Positions 1 to 43,102 of a stretch of 43,102 nucleotides of DNA are shown one piece after another (position 1 is the first letter of the stretch; each line of letters begins with the position of its first letter). The DNA is from a virus. Below the pieces are notes generated by a model, which worked only from the letters and a program-made list of their open reading frames with translations, made no database searches and was not told the origin of the DNA. Made by a program: the position numbers and the translations under genes. The stretch covers positions 1 through 43,102 of the IMG/VR virus record IMGVR_UViG_3300045935_000032. One strand, 5' to 3'.

Positions 1-127
1 CTCTAGGAGGGTCTAGCGAAACGCTCTAGCCGTCCCGCCATGCGGGTTCTCGCCTTCGCGCTGTAGTGGGTTACCCCAGGATGGGCCACGATCTACCCCA
101 TGTCCTCTGCGGCGCTCGTAGCAAGCT
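1..127. repeat. Terminal direct repeat, left copy (circular overlap)
   Basis: Bases 1-127 are identical to 42976-43102. The reading of genes across the join (stop codon at 2927, next start at 42966, with the insertion sequence between) is coherent only if the ends are joined. A 127-base overlap equals a common largest k-mer of short-read assemblers, so it is best read as an assembly overlap of a circular or circularly permuted molecule, not a biological terminal repeat. Confidence 0.93.
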
Positions 128-1451
128 CCTGGACTGATACCTGCGGGCGCTTGATCTTCGGAAGCTCTGGCACGGCCAATCGGACGCGGACAGCATGGAG
201 CAGGTCGGACTCCAACTGTGAGAGTCCGGGCTTCGGGGCGATGTCACGCGCCACGTCGAACAGGCTTTGTACCTCGACCAGGGCGATTTCGAGTCCCTTG
301 CCTCGAATGCGTGCAGCTTCGGCGTATGCGCCTTTCGTGAAGCTGAACGCAATGATGTAGCCCTTGTGCGATCCGTGGCGTTCGATCGCGGTCTCGAATT
401 TATCCACTACTTCCCGCCCGACGTGCTCCTGCTGCTTGACCTCGATTGGCAGCTTCTCCATGAATGAGAAGCCGTCGATTCCGAATTCAGGCCGCTTCAA
501 GTTGTGCTCACCGTAGACGCGCTTGATAATGAAGTTCTGGAATTCGAGCGGCTTCAACGCGCGGAGATCATCGACGGTGTTGAGGCCGTTTTCGATGCGC
601 ACGTTTGCGCCGATGATCTGGAGGCGATCCTGAATGATCCCTACCGCTGTTGGGCTTATGTCGATGCCGATCCACTCGCGCTTCATCTTGTGTGCAACGG
701 CAACCGCCGTCCCGCAGCCGCAGAACGGATCGAGCACGACATCCCCACGGCTGCTGCTGGCCTCGATGATCCGCTGGAGCAATGCCTCAGGCTTCTGTGT
801 CGGGTAGCCGAGCCGCTCACGCGCTGAGGCATTGATGATCGGGATCTCCCATACGTCTCCGAGGCGGCGACCCTCTGAGAGGTAGACCTTGTAGGGGTCC
901 TGGCCCTTCCGTTTTTGCCAGCGGAACCATCGTCCCGACTCGTCCTGCTTGTAGTGGGAGTCGGCTTTGCCGGAGCGCTCGCCGTAGTCCTCGCGAATGT
1001 CGTTGAAGGTTCCCTTTTTGCCCTTGCCGTAGAACAGGATTGTGTCATGTAGCCGCTGGAATCTTCCGCTCGCTGCGGTGTACCGCTTGTAGCTCCAGAT
1101 GAGCTCGTTGCGGAACCGGTCCGGGCGGAATACACGATCGAGAGCCAGTCGGAGATGGTGGTTGGCGTGGAAGTCGCAGTGGAGGTAGATCGAGCCGGTT
1201 GGTTTCAGTACGCGGTGCATCTGTTCGAGGCGTGGTTCCATCCACCCGATGTAGTGGTCGATTCCACCTTTCCAACGGTCCTCGAACGACCGGATCTCTG
1301 ACTCGTCTCCCCAGATGACTTCATAGTGGCGATTCGAGAAGAACGGCGGGTCAAGGTAGATCAAGTCCACTGATTCGTCCGGGAATTCCGCAGCGTTCGA
1401 GAGCCTGCCGAGGTTGTCGTCGCGGTAGATAACTCCAGTTGGGATCGTCAT
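93..1451 (-). CDS. Beta-class DNA methyltransferase fused to an Mrr-type nuclease domain
   Basis: A 452-residue protein. The N-terminal 290 residues are an N6-adenine/N4-cytosine methyltransferase. The catalytic motif DPPF (34-37) precedes the SAM-binding motif DPFCGCGT (241-248), the permuted order of the beta class, and TQKPEALL lies between (about 218-225). The C-terminal part (about 300-400) resembles Mrr_cat: PLEFQNFI, then the PD-(D/E)XK residues Asp326 (GIDGF) and Glu337-Lys339 (IEVK), then a core strand KGYIIAFS. Both active sites look intact. The gene lies inside the insertion sequence, divergent from the transposase, and starts with ATG. It could protect DNA and also cleave it, or the Mrr part could only bind. 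Target sequence unknown. No separate restriction gene is nearby. Confidence 0.85.
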   Translation of the reverse strand: MTIPTGVIYRDDNLGRLSNAAEFPDESVDLIYLDPPFFSNRHYEVIWGDESEIRSFEDRWKGGIDHYIGWMEPRLEQMHRVLKPTGSIYLHCDFHANHHLRLALDRVFRPDRFRNELIWSYKRYTAASGRFQRLHDTILFYGKGKKGTFNDIREDYGERSGKADSHYKQDESGRWFRWQKRKGQDPYKVYLSEGRRLGDVWEIPIINASARERLGYPTQKPEALLQRIIEASSSRGDVVLDPFCGCGTAVAVAHKMKREWIGIDISPTAVGIIQDRLQIIGANVRIENGLNTVDDLRALKPLEFQNFIIKRVYGEHNLKRPEFGIDGFSFMEKLPIEVKQQEHVGREVVDKFETAIERHGSHKGYIIAFSFTKGAYAEAARIRGKGLEIALVEVQSLFDVARDIAPKPGLSQLESDLLHAVRVRLAVPELPKIKRPQVSVQELATSAAEDMG

Positions 1452-1594
1452 AGACGTCCCTCATTCGAGGTCCGATCCTGGACTCCTCTGCCGTCCGATC
1501 GCACCCCTAAAATTGGGTGCAGATAGTCGATAAAAAGAGGCCCCCGCGAAGCTCTAACTTCCGAGGGCCATGACCAAACGAGAGGAACCCTCGC
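1452..1594. promoter_or_regulatory. Divergent intergenic region of the insertion sequence
   Basis: These 143 bp separate the divergent methyltransferase and transposase genes and must hold both promoters. The stretch around 1509-1535 is locally AT-rich. An AGGA ribosome-binding site at about 1580 lies 8 bases before the TTG start of the transposase. No convincing -35/-10 pair could be fixed by eye. Confidence 0.45.
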
Positions 1595-2713
1595 TTGGCA
1601 AGTCGGACCGTAGCACCGCAGTCGGTAGTAGGCCACCTTCGAGGGCTTCTCGACTCGCCGGAGATTGCCGCTCTTTGCGACGAACTCGACGCGCTCCGCT
1701 GGACGGGCCGCAAGGGTTACGGCAGTCGGGCGCTCGTCGGCGCGTGCCTCGTCAAGAGCCTGTACGCGATCCCAACGTGGAGCCGCACCGCCGCGCTGAT
1801 CGGCGAGCACGTCGCGTTGCAGGACGCGCTCGGCGGCGCTCCGTCCGTGTACGCCTGCTACCGCTTCGCTGCGAAGCTGCGCGAGCACAAGCCGATCCTC
1901 GACGCGACGCTCGCGCGACTCGTCGAGCGTCTGAGCGCGGAGGTTCCCGAGTACGGGCAGGACATCGCGATCGACGCTTCCGACCTCCCCGCCTACGCGA
2001 ACGGGCAGCGGTACCTGAGCAAGAACGGCCCGGAGCGCGAGACGTACTCCGACCCGGACGCGAGCTGGGGTCACCGCTCGGCCGTCTCGACGCGGAAGGG
2101 CGGCGGCTTCTACGGATGGAAGTTGCACCTTGCCGTCTGCTCTCAGACCGAGCTTCCCATCGCGTGGCGCGTGGAGACGGCGCGAACGCATGAGTCGAGC
2201 CTCGCCGATGACCTCTTGCAGCGTGTCCGCGCCGTGAAGATCCAGCCGCACACTGCCACGCTCGACAAGGGCTATGACGTTGCTCAGGTGTACGAGGCGT
2301 GTGAGCGCGCCGGGGTCGCGCCGATCATCCCGCTTCGCAAGACTCCCGCCGTCAAGCGCGGCGACCACAAGCCGCCAACGTGCGAGCACGGAACCTGGAC
2401 GTTCGCCGGAGCCGACGCGAAGCGCAGCGCGACGAAGTGGCGCTGCCCTACCGCCGCGTGCAAGCCCGCCTCCGTCTGGATCAAGGCGTGCCGTCTGCAT
2501 CCGCTGATTCCGCGCGAAACGAAGCGGTTCGGCGACCTGTACCGGGGACGCGGAGCCGTCGAACGGACGTTCGGAAGGCTCAAGAATGAGGCGGGACTCG
2601 CCCCGATCCGCGTCCGTGGGATTGAGAAGGTCCAGCTTCACGCCGACCTCTGCATCCTCGCCACGCTCGCCTCCGCACTCGCGCGAGCGCGAGCCGTTCC
2701 GCTCGCCGCGTAA
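1595..2713 (+). CDS. DDE transposase, IS4/IS5 superfamily
   Basis: A 372-residue RNase H-fold transposase with Asp127 (IAIDASD), Asp224 (TLDKGYD) and Glu323. The glutamate sits in the Y(2)R(3)E(6)K signature (Tyr316, Arg319, Glu323, Lys330) typical of IS4/IS5-superfamily enzymes. The TTG start at 1595 has an AGGA site 8 bases upstream; an ATG at 1570 is in another frame. A zinc-like insertion (Cys263, Cys284, Cys289) lies between the second Asp and the Glu. This is the only large plus-strand gene in the genome and it is not interrupted, so the element may be active. Confidence 0.92.
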   Translation: MASRTVAPQSVVGHLRGLLDSPEIAALCDELDALRWTGRKGYGSRALVGACLVKSLYAIPTWSRTAALIGEHVALQDALGGAPSVYACYRFAAKLREHKPILDATLARLVERLSAEVPEYGQDIAIDASDLPAYANGQRYLSKNGPERETYSDPDASWGHRSAVSTRKGGGFYGWKLHLAVCSQTELPIAWRVETARTHESSLADDLLQRVRAVKIQPHTATLDKGYDVAQVYEACERAGVAPIIPLRKTPAVKRGDHKPPTCEHGTWTFAGADAKRSATKWRCPTAACKPASVWIKACRLHPLIPRETKRFGDLYRGRGAVERTFGRLKNEAGLAPIRVRGIEKVQLHADLCILATLASALARARAVPLAA

Positions 2714-2926
2714 GCGGCCCACTACACTCAGACGGATGCTGGAACGGGCGACGACCCGTGCCCTACCACTGATCGGACGCGTGAACCAAACCGCTCCGGT
2801 CGCGACCGGATGCTGCAACGCCTGCCGAACCTGCGTTACAAGCAGCATCGTCGGCCTTGTCGGAGTAGCCCTGACCGGCGCGGTGTCACCCATCGCGCGT
2901 TTCGCTAGCCGTTTCACAAGACCCTC

Positions 2927-3364
2927 CTAGGCGGCGATCGGCGTGAGCGCCATCGTGAGAGAGCCGGACGGGATCGTGAACGTGTCACCAATCGCAACGG
3001 TCTTCGACGCCGTCAACGAGGACGAGCCGAGGAACGTGCCGCTCGAGACGGCCGTCCAGAACGAGACGTGCGAGTACGTCTCCGCGGTGCTGACGGTCAA
3101 CCAGACCACGTCGGCGTTGGTCGCATTCGCGCCGCCCGAGGACGAGGCGAAGGTCGCCTGCTGGCGAGTCGTGTTGCCGGCCGCGTTCGATATGCCCGCG
3201 GCGCCGGGATCGCCCGTGTGGAGCTTGACGAACACGGTTGCGTTGCCGGGGTAGTCGGTTCCTTTCGCGAGCGCGTCGAGGATGCTGTTGGCCTGACCGG
3301 ACGCGATCCCGACGGCCATCCTCGCGACGATCAGCGTTAGGAACGCGCGCAGTAGTCCGATCAT
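2927..3364 (-). CDS. Capsid-fibre/tail-fibre-like structural protein
   Basis: A 145-residue protein with the pattern found in small phage fibre or decoration proteins: VKLHTGDPGAAG (about 46-57), a Thr/Ser-rich middle and a repeat-like C-terminus ending SGSLTMALTP. The first 20 residues are hydrophobic. ATG start with an AGGAGGG site. The TAG stop (2927-2929) overlaps the CTAG duplicated by the insertion sequence, so the element inserted exactly at the end of this gene without altering the protein. It lies downstream of the capsid genes. Precise role unknown. Confidence 0.7.
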   Translation of the reverse strand: MIGLLRAFLTLIVARMAVGIASGQANSILDALAKGTDYPGNATVFVKLHTGDPGAAGISNAAGNTTRQQATFASSSGGANATNADVVWLTVSTAETYSHVSFWTAVSSGTFLGSSSLTASKTVAIGDTFTIPSGSLTMALTPIAA

Positions 3365-3388
3365 CTCTTCCCTCCTACTTCTTTGTGT

Positions 3389-4042
3389 TCAGGCAAAGGT
3401 TCCGAGCGTTGCGTGGACGATGGCGTCGCCGATCTTCGCCTTGGCTTTGAGGTCGCTGCCGTCTATATAGAGGATGAAGCAGCCGTTGAAAGCGAGGTCG
3501 GAGTCTGCTGGTTCGGATGATGCGGCGAGGCGTAGAAAACCCTTGCCGCTGGCCTGCAGTACGGCAACTTGACCGTTCTGCGGGTCGAGATCGAGGTTTT
3601 TGTTGCCGGGGGTGTAGCTGAAGGACACGTCCCCGTCTTGATCGCTAAACTCGACTTGGCCGCTGTCCTGAAACAGGAAGCCGGTGTTGTTGTCAGGGTT
3701 CGGGTCGACTTCGAAGCCTGAACTGCCAGGGTGACCTAGCGAGAGCAAGCTGTGTCCGCCTCCCGCTCCGTCGTCTATCTCACACGAAAAAATGTTGTCC
3801 GCCTGCGCAAACGCCGCGTGGATCAGCGCAGTTTGGGAGTTTGGATCGGTCCCGGTGACAATGAACGGATTGGGGAGCGAACCGCCGCCCCCTGCTCGTT
3901 TCGCCGCGACCGCAGCGATCGCCCTCTCCGAATAGGCCATCGTCAGCAGGTACACCTCAGCTGCGTCGGCCGGCAAAGCATCGAGGATCGCGCCGACCTC
4001 CGCAACCGAAGATGCTTCATAGCCGGTCAACTGTTCAGTCAT
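3389..4042 (-). CDS. Putative virion structural protein
   Basis: A 217-residue protein, not recognised at family level. The N-terminus (about 1-50) is alpha-helical with Ala/Glu-rich sequence. From about 80 on it is a Gly/Asp/Ser-rich, probably beta-structured domain (FLFQDSGQVEFSDQDGDVSF) ending in KIGDAIVHATLGTFA, reminiscent of fibre or decoration proteins. The start codon shares ATGA with the stop of the 47-residue gene upstream. Position between major capsid and a fibre-like gene supports a head or fibre role. Confidence 0.6.
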   Translation of the reverse strand: MTEQLTGYEASSVAEVGAILDALPADAAEVYLLTMAYSERAIAAVAAKRAGGGGSLPNPFIVTGTDPNSQTALIHAAFAQADNIFSCEIDDGAGGGHSLLSLGHPGSSGFEVDPNPDNNTGFLFQDSGQVEFSDQDGDVSFSYTPGNKNLDLDPQNGQVAVLQASGKGFLRLAASSEPADSDLAFNGCFILYIDGSDLKAKAKIGDAIVHATLGTFA

Positions 4043-4182
4043 CTCTTCGCCTTCACCTTCGGCTTCTGCTCTACCTTCTGTGGAGCGCCGAGACCGGAGA
4101 GATTCTCGGTCGTAGTTGCCTTCGGCTTCTCACCCGTCGGGTTGTAGAACCCGGCTTCTCGGCGCTCCCTGTACGGCGTCAT
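4039..4182 (-). CDS. Small basic protein (47 aa)
   Basis: ATG at 4182 lies three bases after the stop of the 93-residue gene, and the TGA stop shares ATGA with the next gene. The sequence starts MTPYRERREAGFYNPTGEKP and ends in a Lys-rich tail (QKPKVKAKR). The motif GFYNPTG and the size suggest a small head-associated protein. Function unknown; the tight coupling supports translation. Confidence 0.6.
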   Translation of the reverse strand: MTPYRERREAGFYNPTGEKPKATTTENLSGLGAPQKVEQKPKVKAKR

Positions 4183-4185
4183 TCG

Positions 4186-4467
4186 CTAGTTGTCCGGGGT
4201 CGGCATCGACGCGAACCCGCTCAGGCTGGGGCCGGGGCCGCCGAGGATCCTGCCGACCTGCTCCTCCGAGCTTCCGCTCACGTTCGGCTGCATGACGTAC
4301 TCGTCCGGTCCGGCCGAAGCGACGTCACCGGGTGCGGGTGCCGGGGTCGTGTCGAGGTTGCCGCCGTCGACGGGCATCGTCTGCCCTGACGGGTTGGACG
4401 GCTCGTTACCGGCCGGCATCCCGCCGACGTTCTCCTGTGCGCCGGACTCCATTCCTGAAATGTCCAT
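4186..4467 (-). CDS. Low-complexity virion-associated protein (93 aa)
   Basis: A Pro/Gly/Ser/Asn-rich, probably disordered protein directly downstream of the major capsid gene, with a GGAAGGAG site before its ATG. It contains GPDEYVMQPNVSGSSEEQVG. No family recognised. Position suggests a head accessory or decoration protein. Confidence 0.6.
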   Translation of the reverse strand: MDISGMESGAQENVGGMPAGNEPSNPSGQTMPVDGGNLDTTPAPAPGDVASAGPDEYVMQPNVSGSSEEQVGRILGGPGPSLSGFASMPTPDN

Positions 4468-4538
4468 TCGTCTCCTTCCATAGCGGGAGGATCCGACCCA
4501 TGCGCGCCGGACCCTCCCTTTCGCGTCAGCGCCCCGAG

Positions 4539-5798
4539 TTACGAGGCGGTTGTGATGAGTGCGAACGCGCCGTCGTCGACTACGTCGGCCTCGAATGCGC
4601 CGATGATGCCGACCTCGACACCGCCGATCGCAGGCTCGACGACCCGGAGCTCCACCGGAGCACCGGCCGTCTCCGCGACGAGCAGACCGGCCGAGTCACC
4701 GACGACGATCGTGCCGGAGTCGAGTCCACGCGAGATCACGATGTTCAGCGGCCCGATGTTCTGGCCGTTGACCGACATGAACTGCGTGAACGCGTTCGAC
4801 GTGAGGCCCAGGAAGTAGCCGAACCTGTCCGGGGCGAGGTAGATCGTGTCGGCGACGCGGCCGCTGTTCGCGAACACGGCGGCGTAGCCGGCACCGATCC
4901 CGGTCATCATCTGGGCGAACGTGTCGGTCGCCCCGACCTGCGTCGAGATGTGATGCGAGTAGGCGGAGTCGGTGAGCGCCTTGGCGGCGTCCTGCTCCGT
5001 CTTCAGCGCGTAGTCGGCTGCGGCCAGGTCGAACCAGAGGGACAACGCGTCCGGCGTCGTCCAGTTGATCGCCTGCCACGACAGGTCGCCGCCACCGAGA
5101 TACGTGGAGGCGGTCTGCGTGACGAGGTCGACGACCATCCCCTGGTTGCCTGCCTCCGTCTTCTGGCTGGCCTGCACCGACACGATCGGCCGGGTCGTGA
5201 CCTTCGGGTAGGTGAGCGTGCCCCGCATGAGCGAGGTCCGCATGGCCGAGTTGACCAGGTTCCGGTTCTTGTTGATGATCTGGAAGATCTGGTCGAGGTA
5301 CTGCGGCGTCTGCAAGCCGGCGACGTTGCTCGAGAGCGTGTTCGCCGGAGTCCGCTGGAGGAGGGCGTCCCTCTCGCGGGCCTTGAGAACGACGTCGTTG
5401 CCGCCTGCGAGCTGGGCGATCTTGCTGCACTCGGTCGTGCCACGCATGAGGATCTGGTCACGCGCGTAGGTGGCGAAGTCGCGGTAGATGATGCCGTCAC
5501 CGTCAAGCTCGACTCCATCCTCGACACCGGCCATCGCCTGCCGGGCCTTCTTGGCGGTCGCGATCGCAGCGTTCGTGGCCGAGATGTCCTCGGTCAGCTG
5601 CGTCGTCTCCACGTCGATCTCGGTGACACGCTCGCGATACTTGAGAATGTGCTCCTGCTCGACTTCCGTGAGCGTCTTGTCTTCGCCTTCGCGGGAGTTG
5701 ATCGCTGCGTTCAGCGCCTCCCACTTCTGGGTCGTGACCTCGCGCTCGTCGAGCAGCATCGACAGGCGGTTCTCCGCCTGGGTGGTCGATGCGGCCAT
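4539..5798 (-). CDS. Major capsid protein, HK97 fold
   Basis: A 419-residue phage capsid protein. Residues about 5-90 are a charged coiled coil (delta/scaffold domain) likely removed by the prohead protease encoded upstream. The mature part follows, with RTPANTLSSNVAGLQTPQYL marking its N-arm region, and HK97-type features later: TYPKVTTRPIVSVQASQKTE (E-loop/spine area) and a C-terminal beta domain (GSAGLLVAETAGAPVELRVV-like). Order portal-protease-capsid is the classic HK97 order. ATG start with GGAGG upstream. Confidence 0.93.
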   Translation of the reverse strand: MAASTTQAENRLSMLLDEREVTTQKWEALNAAINSREGEDKTLTEVEQEHILKYRERVTEIDVETTQLTEDISATNAAIATAKKARQAMAGVEDGVELDGDGIIYRDFATYARDQILMRGTTECSKIAQLAGGNDVVLKARERDALLQRTPANTLSSNVAGLQTPQYLDQIFQIINKNRNLVNSAMRTSLMRGTLTYPKVTTRPIVSVQASQKTEAGNQGMVVDLVTQTASTYLGGGDLSWQAINWTTPDALSLWFDLAAADYALKTEQDAAKALTDSAYSHHISTQVGATDTFAQMMTGIGAGYAAVFANSGRVADTIYLAPDRFGYFLGLTSNAFTQFMSVNGQNIGPLNIVISRGLDSGTIVVGDSAGLLVAETAGAPVELRVVEPAIGGVEVGIIGAFEADVVDDGAFALITTAS

Positions 5799-42975: not shown

Positions 42976-43102
42976 CTCTAGGAGGGTCTAGCGAAACGCT
43001 CTAGCCGTCCCGCCATGCGGGTTCTCGCCTTCGCGCTGTAGTGGGTTACCCCAGGATGGGCCACGATCTACCCCATGTCCTCTGCGGCGCTCGTAGCAAG
43101 CT
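42976..43102. repeat. Terminal direct repeat, right copy
   Basis: Identical to 1-127. It begins two bases before the CTAG duplication and contains the left end of the insertion sequence. Confidence 0.93.

Follow-up and report, generated by a model that had tools for sequence, protein, structure and literature searches.

An insertion sequence in a tailed phage carries a predicted methyltransferase–Mrr fusion gene that recurs as cargo of unrelated mobile elements

Introduction

How does a gene whose product might both modify and cut DNA come to lie between the ends of an insertion sequence (IS) in a phage genome, and what would it do there? The question is raised by IMG/VR virus record IMGVR_UViG_3300045935_000032, which we analysed in its entirety (43,102 bases, henceforth the window). 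Positions 7-2926 of the window hold an IS of 2,920 base pairs (bp) that bears a transposase gene together with a passenger gene predicted to encode a beta-class DNA methyltransferase joined to an Mrr-like nuclease domain. There is a long-standing suspicion that restriction-modification systems act as selfish mobile elements; to our knowledge, most of the mobile cases are borne by large islands or have no more than a link to an IS. Here, comparison of viral contigs identifies the fused gene as a recurrent cargo of ISs, which we consider a new finding. We favour, with a probability of roughly 60%, the reading of the element as a transporter IS that carries, as its passenger, a single-chain enzyme resembling a restriction-modification system.

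Results

The first 127 nucleotides (nt) of the window recur exactly at its end (1-127 = 42976-43102). The record thus represents a circular contig of 42,975 bp, so that both junctions of the element are present, the left flank being found at the right end of the window. The break in the circle falls just 6 nt beyond the left end of the IS; chance is an unlikely explanation for this, and it may mean that the sample holds the IS end a second time, next to a different flank.

The element is bounded by a CTAG target-site duplication, with one copy at 3-6 (also 42978-42981 through the circular overlap) and the other at 2927-2930. Inside it lie imperfect terminal inverted repeats of 17 nt with two mismatches, on the left GAGGGTCTAGCGAAACG (7-23, plus strand) and on the right, reading inward, GAGGGTCTTGTGAAACG (2910-2926, minus strand), and the terminal sequence of the IS ends is GAGGGTCYRGCGAAAC. 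With CTAG included, the arms at 3-23 and 2910-2930 form 21-nt stretches of 90% complementarity. By itself the inverted repeat falls short of significance, since 8 of 60 shuffles scored as well in a blind search of the flanks. The identification of the IS stands because independent features agree: the CTAG duplication, ends shared with relatives, an intact transposase gene and an empty site in related phages. Indeed, the CTAG duplication and the same end sequence, including that of the left repeat, are found in the related elements L004, L035, L037 and L027, and the right ends of the related elements share the motif GTTTCGC N4 CGTTTCGC N4-5 CCCTC, of which the window has the double motif GTTTCGC N4 CGTTTCAC (2899-2917, plus strand). 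The original prediction had inverted repeats and CTAG duplications enclosing both the transposase gene and the fused gene, and all of them were found where it had placed them. The element has the features of a transporter IS: a transposase gene framed by inverted repeats and a target duplication and, within the same ends, a passenger unrelated to transposition. In the remainder of the phage sequence (2931-42977), CTAG is rarer than expected, with 44 occurrences against 132 predicted from base composition and 55 from trinucleotides.

The phage encodes terminase, portal, major head protein, head protein and tail fibre on the minus strand, as well as an integrase and a RecT-like protein, and is probably temperate because it has the latter two. 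The IS sits exactly between the head-protein and tail-fibre genes: the TAG of the right CTAG copy is the stop codon of the head-protein gene, and the tail-fibre gene starts about 12 nt from the left-side copy, the one that is not at the head-protein gene. Four related phages (L044, L045, L046 and L054), whose major head proteins are 90-93% identical, have an empty site, with head and tail-fibre genes 12-14 nt apart, no insert and no methyltransferase gene. Since these kin have an empty site, the methyltransferase gene arrived with the element, and we reject the alternative of a phage gene native to this position. The gene had been proposed to belong to the element, on the understanding that homologues at this site in related phages, free of transposase and ends, would mark it as a phage gene; the kin show the opposite. 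The empty site, along with related copies at other sites, also suggests that the element is mobile. A search of IMG/VR for other copies of this exact IS returned only relatives.

The passenger gene (93-1451, minus strand, ATG start at 1451) encodes 452 amino acids (aa). Residues 28-274 (630-1370, minus strand) match the methyltransferase family PF01555 at 176.6 bits, with DPPF (34-37) ahead of DPFCGCGT (241-248), and the structure model of this part matches M.BceJIV and M.RsrI. The family match and a DPPY/F motif preceding the FxGxG-like, S-adenosylmethionine-binding motif place it among the beta-class N6/N4 methyltransferases. Residues 296-399 (255-566, minus strand) match Mrr_cat (PF04471) at 26.7 bits (cut-off 21) and contain D326 (474-476), E337 (441-443) and K339 (435-437), which alignments mark as the presumed catalytic residues (435-476, minus strand); D326 and K339 are nearly invariant in relatives. 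Modelled alone, the Mrr domain (predicted local distance difference test score, pLDDT, 87) has an alpha-beta-beta-beta-alpha-beta core, the order of PD-(D/E)xK nucleases; D326 immediately precedes the second strand, and the third strand bears E337-x-K339. Its best fold match is the restriction endonuclease EcoT38I (E 5.6e-3, TM score 0.58), followed at lower scores by a Holliday-junction resolvase and DpnI, whereas a sequence-profile search of the domain against solved structures returned nothing. The model supports, without proving, a restriction-endonuclease-like fold. Together, the profile matches and alignments show a predicted beta-class methyltransferase of the DPPF (N6-adenine) type, fused to an Mrr-like domain that has the D-ExK triad of PD-(D/E)xK nucleases, and so bear out the fusion and the three residues originally called.

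To find further carriers, we scanned viral contigs with the close clade of the fusion, which yielded more copies of its short form (about 390-430 aa). At no fewer than seven other viral loci the fused gene lies between inverted repeats of unrelated elements. The nearest relative (L071, 61% identity) is carried by a 2,992-bp IS1-like element with 29-nt ends (2294-5285). A 4,236-bp IS1-like element (L078, 2351-6586) has 25-nt ends and an 8-bp duplication, GCTTGCCG; it is seen again in L079, the two contigs being one virus with seven differences, and its fusion is of a longer form. IS1595 elements are represented by L093 (212 bits, exact 25-nt ends) and L096 (218 bits, exact 24-nt ends), and L095 has exact 19-nt ends of an IS1-like type. 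In two further cases no transposase gene is present: L089, with exact 23-nt ends and an 8-bp duplication, TATTGTTT, and L091, with exact 26-nt ends. When ends were scored against shuffled flanks, none of 60 shuffles did as well for L078, L089, L091, L093 and L096, and one of 60 for L071 and L095. Viral contigs thus hold four kinds of carrier: CTAG-type, IS1-like and IS1595 elements, and transposase-less cassettes. Seven of the 13 short-form viral proteins, including that of the window, are encoded inside inverted repeats; of the six others, two are at the edge of their contigs. In a tree with many unresolved forks, IS-borne proteins are interspersed with proteins for which no ends were detected, a pattern that fits repeated capture of the fused gene by IS types.

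Three candidates were not counted as ISs. The long repeat flanking L024 resembles a dispersed genome repeat; L118, with its Type III-like pair, has an inverted repeat on the scale of the contig that seems to stem from assembly or from a hairpin; and L094 has an IS1595 transposase gene upstream, with no ends found. In L020 (4900-6562), an imperfect inverted repeat of 31 nt (0 of 60 shuffles) closely brackets a bacterial fusion gene; no transposase gene was seen, and the unit is a possible cassette. The IS1-like elements L071 (2294-5285), L078 (2351-6586) and L075 (2879-5835), all in viral contigs, have GGTAGTGTC-type ends, and their passengers comprise the methyltransferase-Mrr fusion, a P63C-like protein and a small, possibly Cas2-like protein. 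Genes of what we take to be a P63C-like phage family also occur within or directly beside three methyltransferase-Mrr elements (L089, 3064-3960; L078, 2891-3898; L071, 5276-5626).

Outside such elements, free-standing methyltransferase-Mrr fusions are found across bacterial phyla, on plasmids and in actinophages, where Dori gp42, Hippo gp48 and Amgine gp37 have 31-36% identity to the window protein. A fused nuclease within an IS, in a phage, had been thought unusual; such fusions prove to be ordinary in phages, as Dori gp42 and Hippo gp48 illustrate, and in viral contigs they are recurrent IS cargo.

Does the Mrr domain still cut? Three motif states occur: D...EVK in the window, D...QVK in close relatives and D...SVK in the wider family. 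The most substantial rival holds that the passenger is a solitary methyltransferase whose Mrr domain has lost cleavage and only aids DNA binding, the enzyme protecting phage or element DNA or tuning expression. Methyltransferases are known to protect phage DNA, many relatives have SVK rather than E/QxK and match an 'inactive' nuclease family, and viral contigs also encode shorter methyltransferases devoid of a nuclease domain, such as those of L104, L106 and L112. Yet all complete short-form relatives that were scored keep D...(E/Q)xK, as D...QVK, and the window protein keeps it too; moreover, in L021 (4695-6236) a methyltransferase of the same family has an HNH nuclease in the Mrr position, a swap for another nuclease and not for a binding domain, which suggests that the C-terminal slot is meant for a nuclease. 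The conservation of the nuclease in the short form speaks against a dead domain, and we regard the solitary methyltransferase as unlikely, with perhaps one chance in a few. The kept motif and the HNH swap, along with the inspection by eye of the neighbourhoods of solitary fusions, in which no partner nuclease or helicase gene was evident, lend indirect support to a defence role.

Several findings weigh against a cutting, single-chain enzyme and keep us from certainty. The wider family, including proteins of Sphingomonas, the actinophages and L078, has D...SVK, and nine of 16 members, among them actinophage and plasmid SVK proteins, match the Pfam 'inactive' nuclease family NA-iREase1; given this motif state and these matches, some fusions may be methyltransferases only. 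The triad is lost altogether in one relative (L018), and such degenerate proteins speak, with the SVK state, against certainty. The Mrr_cat match of the window protein is modest, and its fold matches are weak, none having an E value under 0.001. A cutting enzyme would, moreover, have to avoid cleaving its own DNA. Finally, the viral status of some of the short contigs comes from IMG/VR alone.

Were the domain active, it could instead act on modified rather than unmodified DNA. The named member of the Mrr family is a modification-dependent nuclease, and the Pfam match assigns the domain to that family; a Type IV-like enzyme would target foreign methylation, its own methyltransferase leaving a harmless mark. 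We consider this very improbable, as a fused sequence-specific methyltransferase would make the cutting of unmodified DNA the simpler scheme.

We next considered the transposase and its kin. The gene (1595-2713, plus strand, TTG start) is intact and encodes 372 aa with a DDE_Tnp_1 domain (PF01609, 84.5 bits), in which D127, D224 and E323 are invariant among viral relatives that are 55-60% identical. The best NCBIfam model is IS1182, at 129.8 bits against a cut-off of 270, and all IS5 models likewise fall below their cut-offs (given in brackets): IS5_4 at 61.7 bits (140), IS5_2 at 50.9 (140), IS5_3 at 50.2 (110) and IS5_1 at 28.2 (275). Because it falls below every curated IS5 and IS1182 cut-off, we place the transposase, by its profile scores, in an unnamed group near IS5/IS1182; the earlier label 'IS5-type' was imprecise. 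IS5/IS1182-type elements are alike in their DDE_Tnp_1 domain and 4-bp CTAG duplication and differ in the transposase itself. The IS5 family makes a 4-bp YTAR-like target duplication, a style that the CTAG of the window and of L004, L035, L037 and L027 fits. Searches for the transposase found no match in sequenced phages, weak matches only in plasmids apart from a remnant in Iamia, and none in ten bacterial genomes that hold the methyltransferase.

Passenger and transposase genes diverge from an intergenic region (1452-1594). Upstream of the transposase gene, a leader hairpin (1539-1569, plus strand) and a small hairpin (1579-1593, plus strand) that would cover the ribosome-binding site (GAGAGGAA) are kept in eight related elements, with compensatory changes at eight of 14 predicted hairpin pairs; the leader may therefore restrict transposase synthesis. 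A scan for sigma70-type promoters found nothing, nor did Rfam and tRNA scans.

The same transposase group carries very diverse passengers, among them retropepsin-like, ClpP-like and winged-helix proteins. L004 carries a DUF3467 protein and a weakly retropepsin-like protein; L037 and L036 carry small proteins that presumably end in a winged helix (the Pfam matches are below cut-off, and the call is partly our own reading); and L035 carries several genes, including those for helix-turn-helix and response-regulator-like proteins. L027 (5778-6834) has both ends, the CTAG duplication and a ClpP-like gene, with no transposase gene. The insertion point of this cassette coincides exactly with the stop codon of a tape-measure-like gene. 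At L028 1499-1502 and L037 5542-5545, two ends of the IS group directly adjoin each other with a single CTAG in common, as the insertion of one copy at another's duplication would leave them.

One further relative bears on restriction. On Iamia plasmid NZ_CP050950 (L029, 4953-7154) the genes come in the order transposase remnant, Type II methyltransferase (373 bits in PADLOC) and 210-aa protein bearing PD...VEIK, after which lies a right end of the group. Homologues of the 210-aa protein adjoin a methyltransferase on a small Citrobacter plasmid as well; the IS copy on the Iamia plasmid is truncated and lacks its left end. A two-gene restriction-modification pair has thus probably also travelled with this IS group.

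This variety of passengers bears on two last rivals. The gene might be a neutral hitchhiker, carried by chance and of no lasting role, as so diverse a set of passengers could suggest. Against this, the fused gene sits between unrelated inverted repeats at the viral loci described above, with frames and catalytic residues intact in most, and its conserved nuclease in the short form argues the same way; we hold the hitchhiker to be very improbable. Alternatively, the passenger might serve transposition itself, methylation of the element ends or near CTAG timing or limiting jumps. Methyltransferases do control some transposons, as Dam does IS10, and here a methyltransferase is linked to three IS types. 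But the same transposase family carries retropepsin-like, ClpP-like and winged-helix passengers, the nuclease domain would have no place in such a scheme, and the same gene occurs with unrelated ends, so that we rate this the least probable of the readings weighed.

Discussion

We propose that a DDE element with one transposase and a specificity for CTAG targets jumped into a tailed phage, landing between two of its structural genes. On our preferred reading, the methyltransferase part of its passenger would recognise and methylate a site, and the Mrr part would cut DNA in which that site is unmodified, in a single-chain, Type II-like arrangement. Carrier cells and phages would then bear a mark of self, rival DNA would come under attack and losing the element might be punished, a benefit that would explain the uptake of the same gene by several unrelated IS types. 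Such a passenger would be expected to cleave DNA, to cause addiction and to protect the phage. As the passenger gene runs in the same direction as the phage structural genes, late read-through from these could express it. A bolder version, which we put forward only tentatively, takes the one-gene methyltransferase-nuclease to be an active, self-sufficient module of restriction-modification and addiction, by which unrelated phage ISs have repeatedly been made into selfish 'restriction transposons': DNA taking up the element would become self, and DNA without it would be cut.

The nearest established categories are the transporter insertion sequences (tIS) and mobile insertion cassettes (MIC) defined by ISfinder/ISsaga (PMC3129680). 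A tIS is likewise a single-transposase IS with a non-transposition passenger, inverted repeats and a target duplication, while transposase-less L027, L089 and L091 fit the definition of a MIC; what differs is that the passenger is a fused methyltransferase-nuclease, that the element lies in a phage and that the same passenger recurs in unrelated IS types. A methyltransferase and a PD-(D/E)xK nuclease also share one chain in Type IIG enzymes and fused enzymes like them. In Type IIG proteins, however, the nuclease is at the N-terminus (PMC4389544), and the order nuclease, methyltransferase, recognition domain differs from that seen here, where the beta-class methyltransferase comes first and the nuclease last. 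The actinophage fusions Dori gp42, Hippo gp48 and Amgine gp37 share the domain order of the window protein, yet are ordinary phage genes near the integrase, outside any IS, with SVK in place of EVK.

Tn7-like transposons are far larger and have multi-protein transposition machinery, unlike the element in the window. They too are mobile elements with putative defence cargo (PMC8649781). Earlier work has linked restriction-modification to IS movement (PMC3031569) and has described restriction-modification units that possess their own inverted repeats and target duplications (PMC3874152); those units are likewise linked to transposition, whereas here the gene is inside an IS, between its ends. 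We found no report of a fused methyltransferase-Mrr gene inside ISs in the literature searched, ISfinder and much of the subscription literature lying outside that search.

What presumably amounts to a whole restriction-modification system is here a single gene inside an element of 2-4 kilobases. If the nuclease works, these elements would be the smallest restriction-carrying transposons, directly testable for element persistence, exclusion of rival phages and protection of the carrier phage, and phages would be couriers of such units between hosts. The recurrence of the fusion suggests that a one-gene DNA-policing enzyme is a repeated passenger of mobile DNA.

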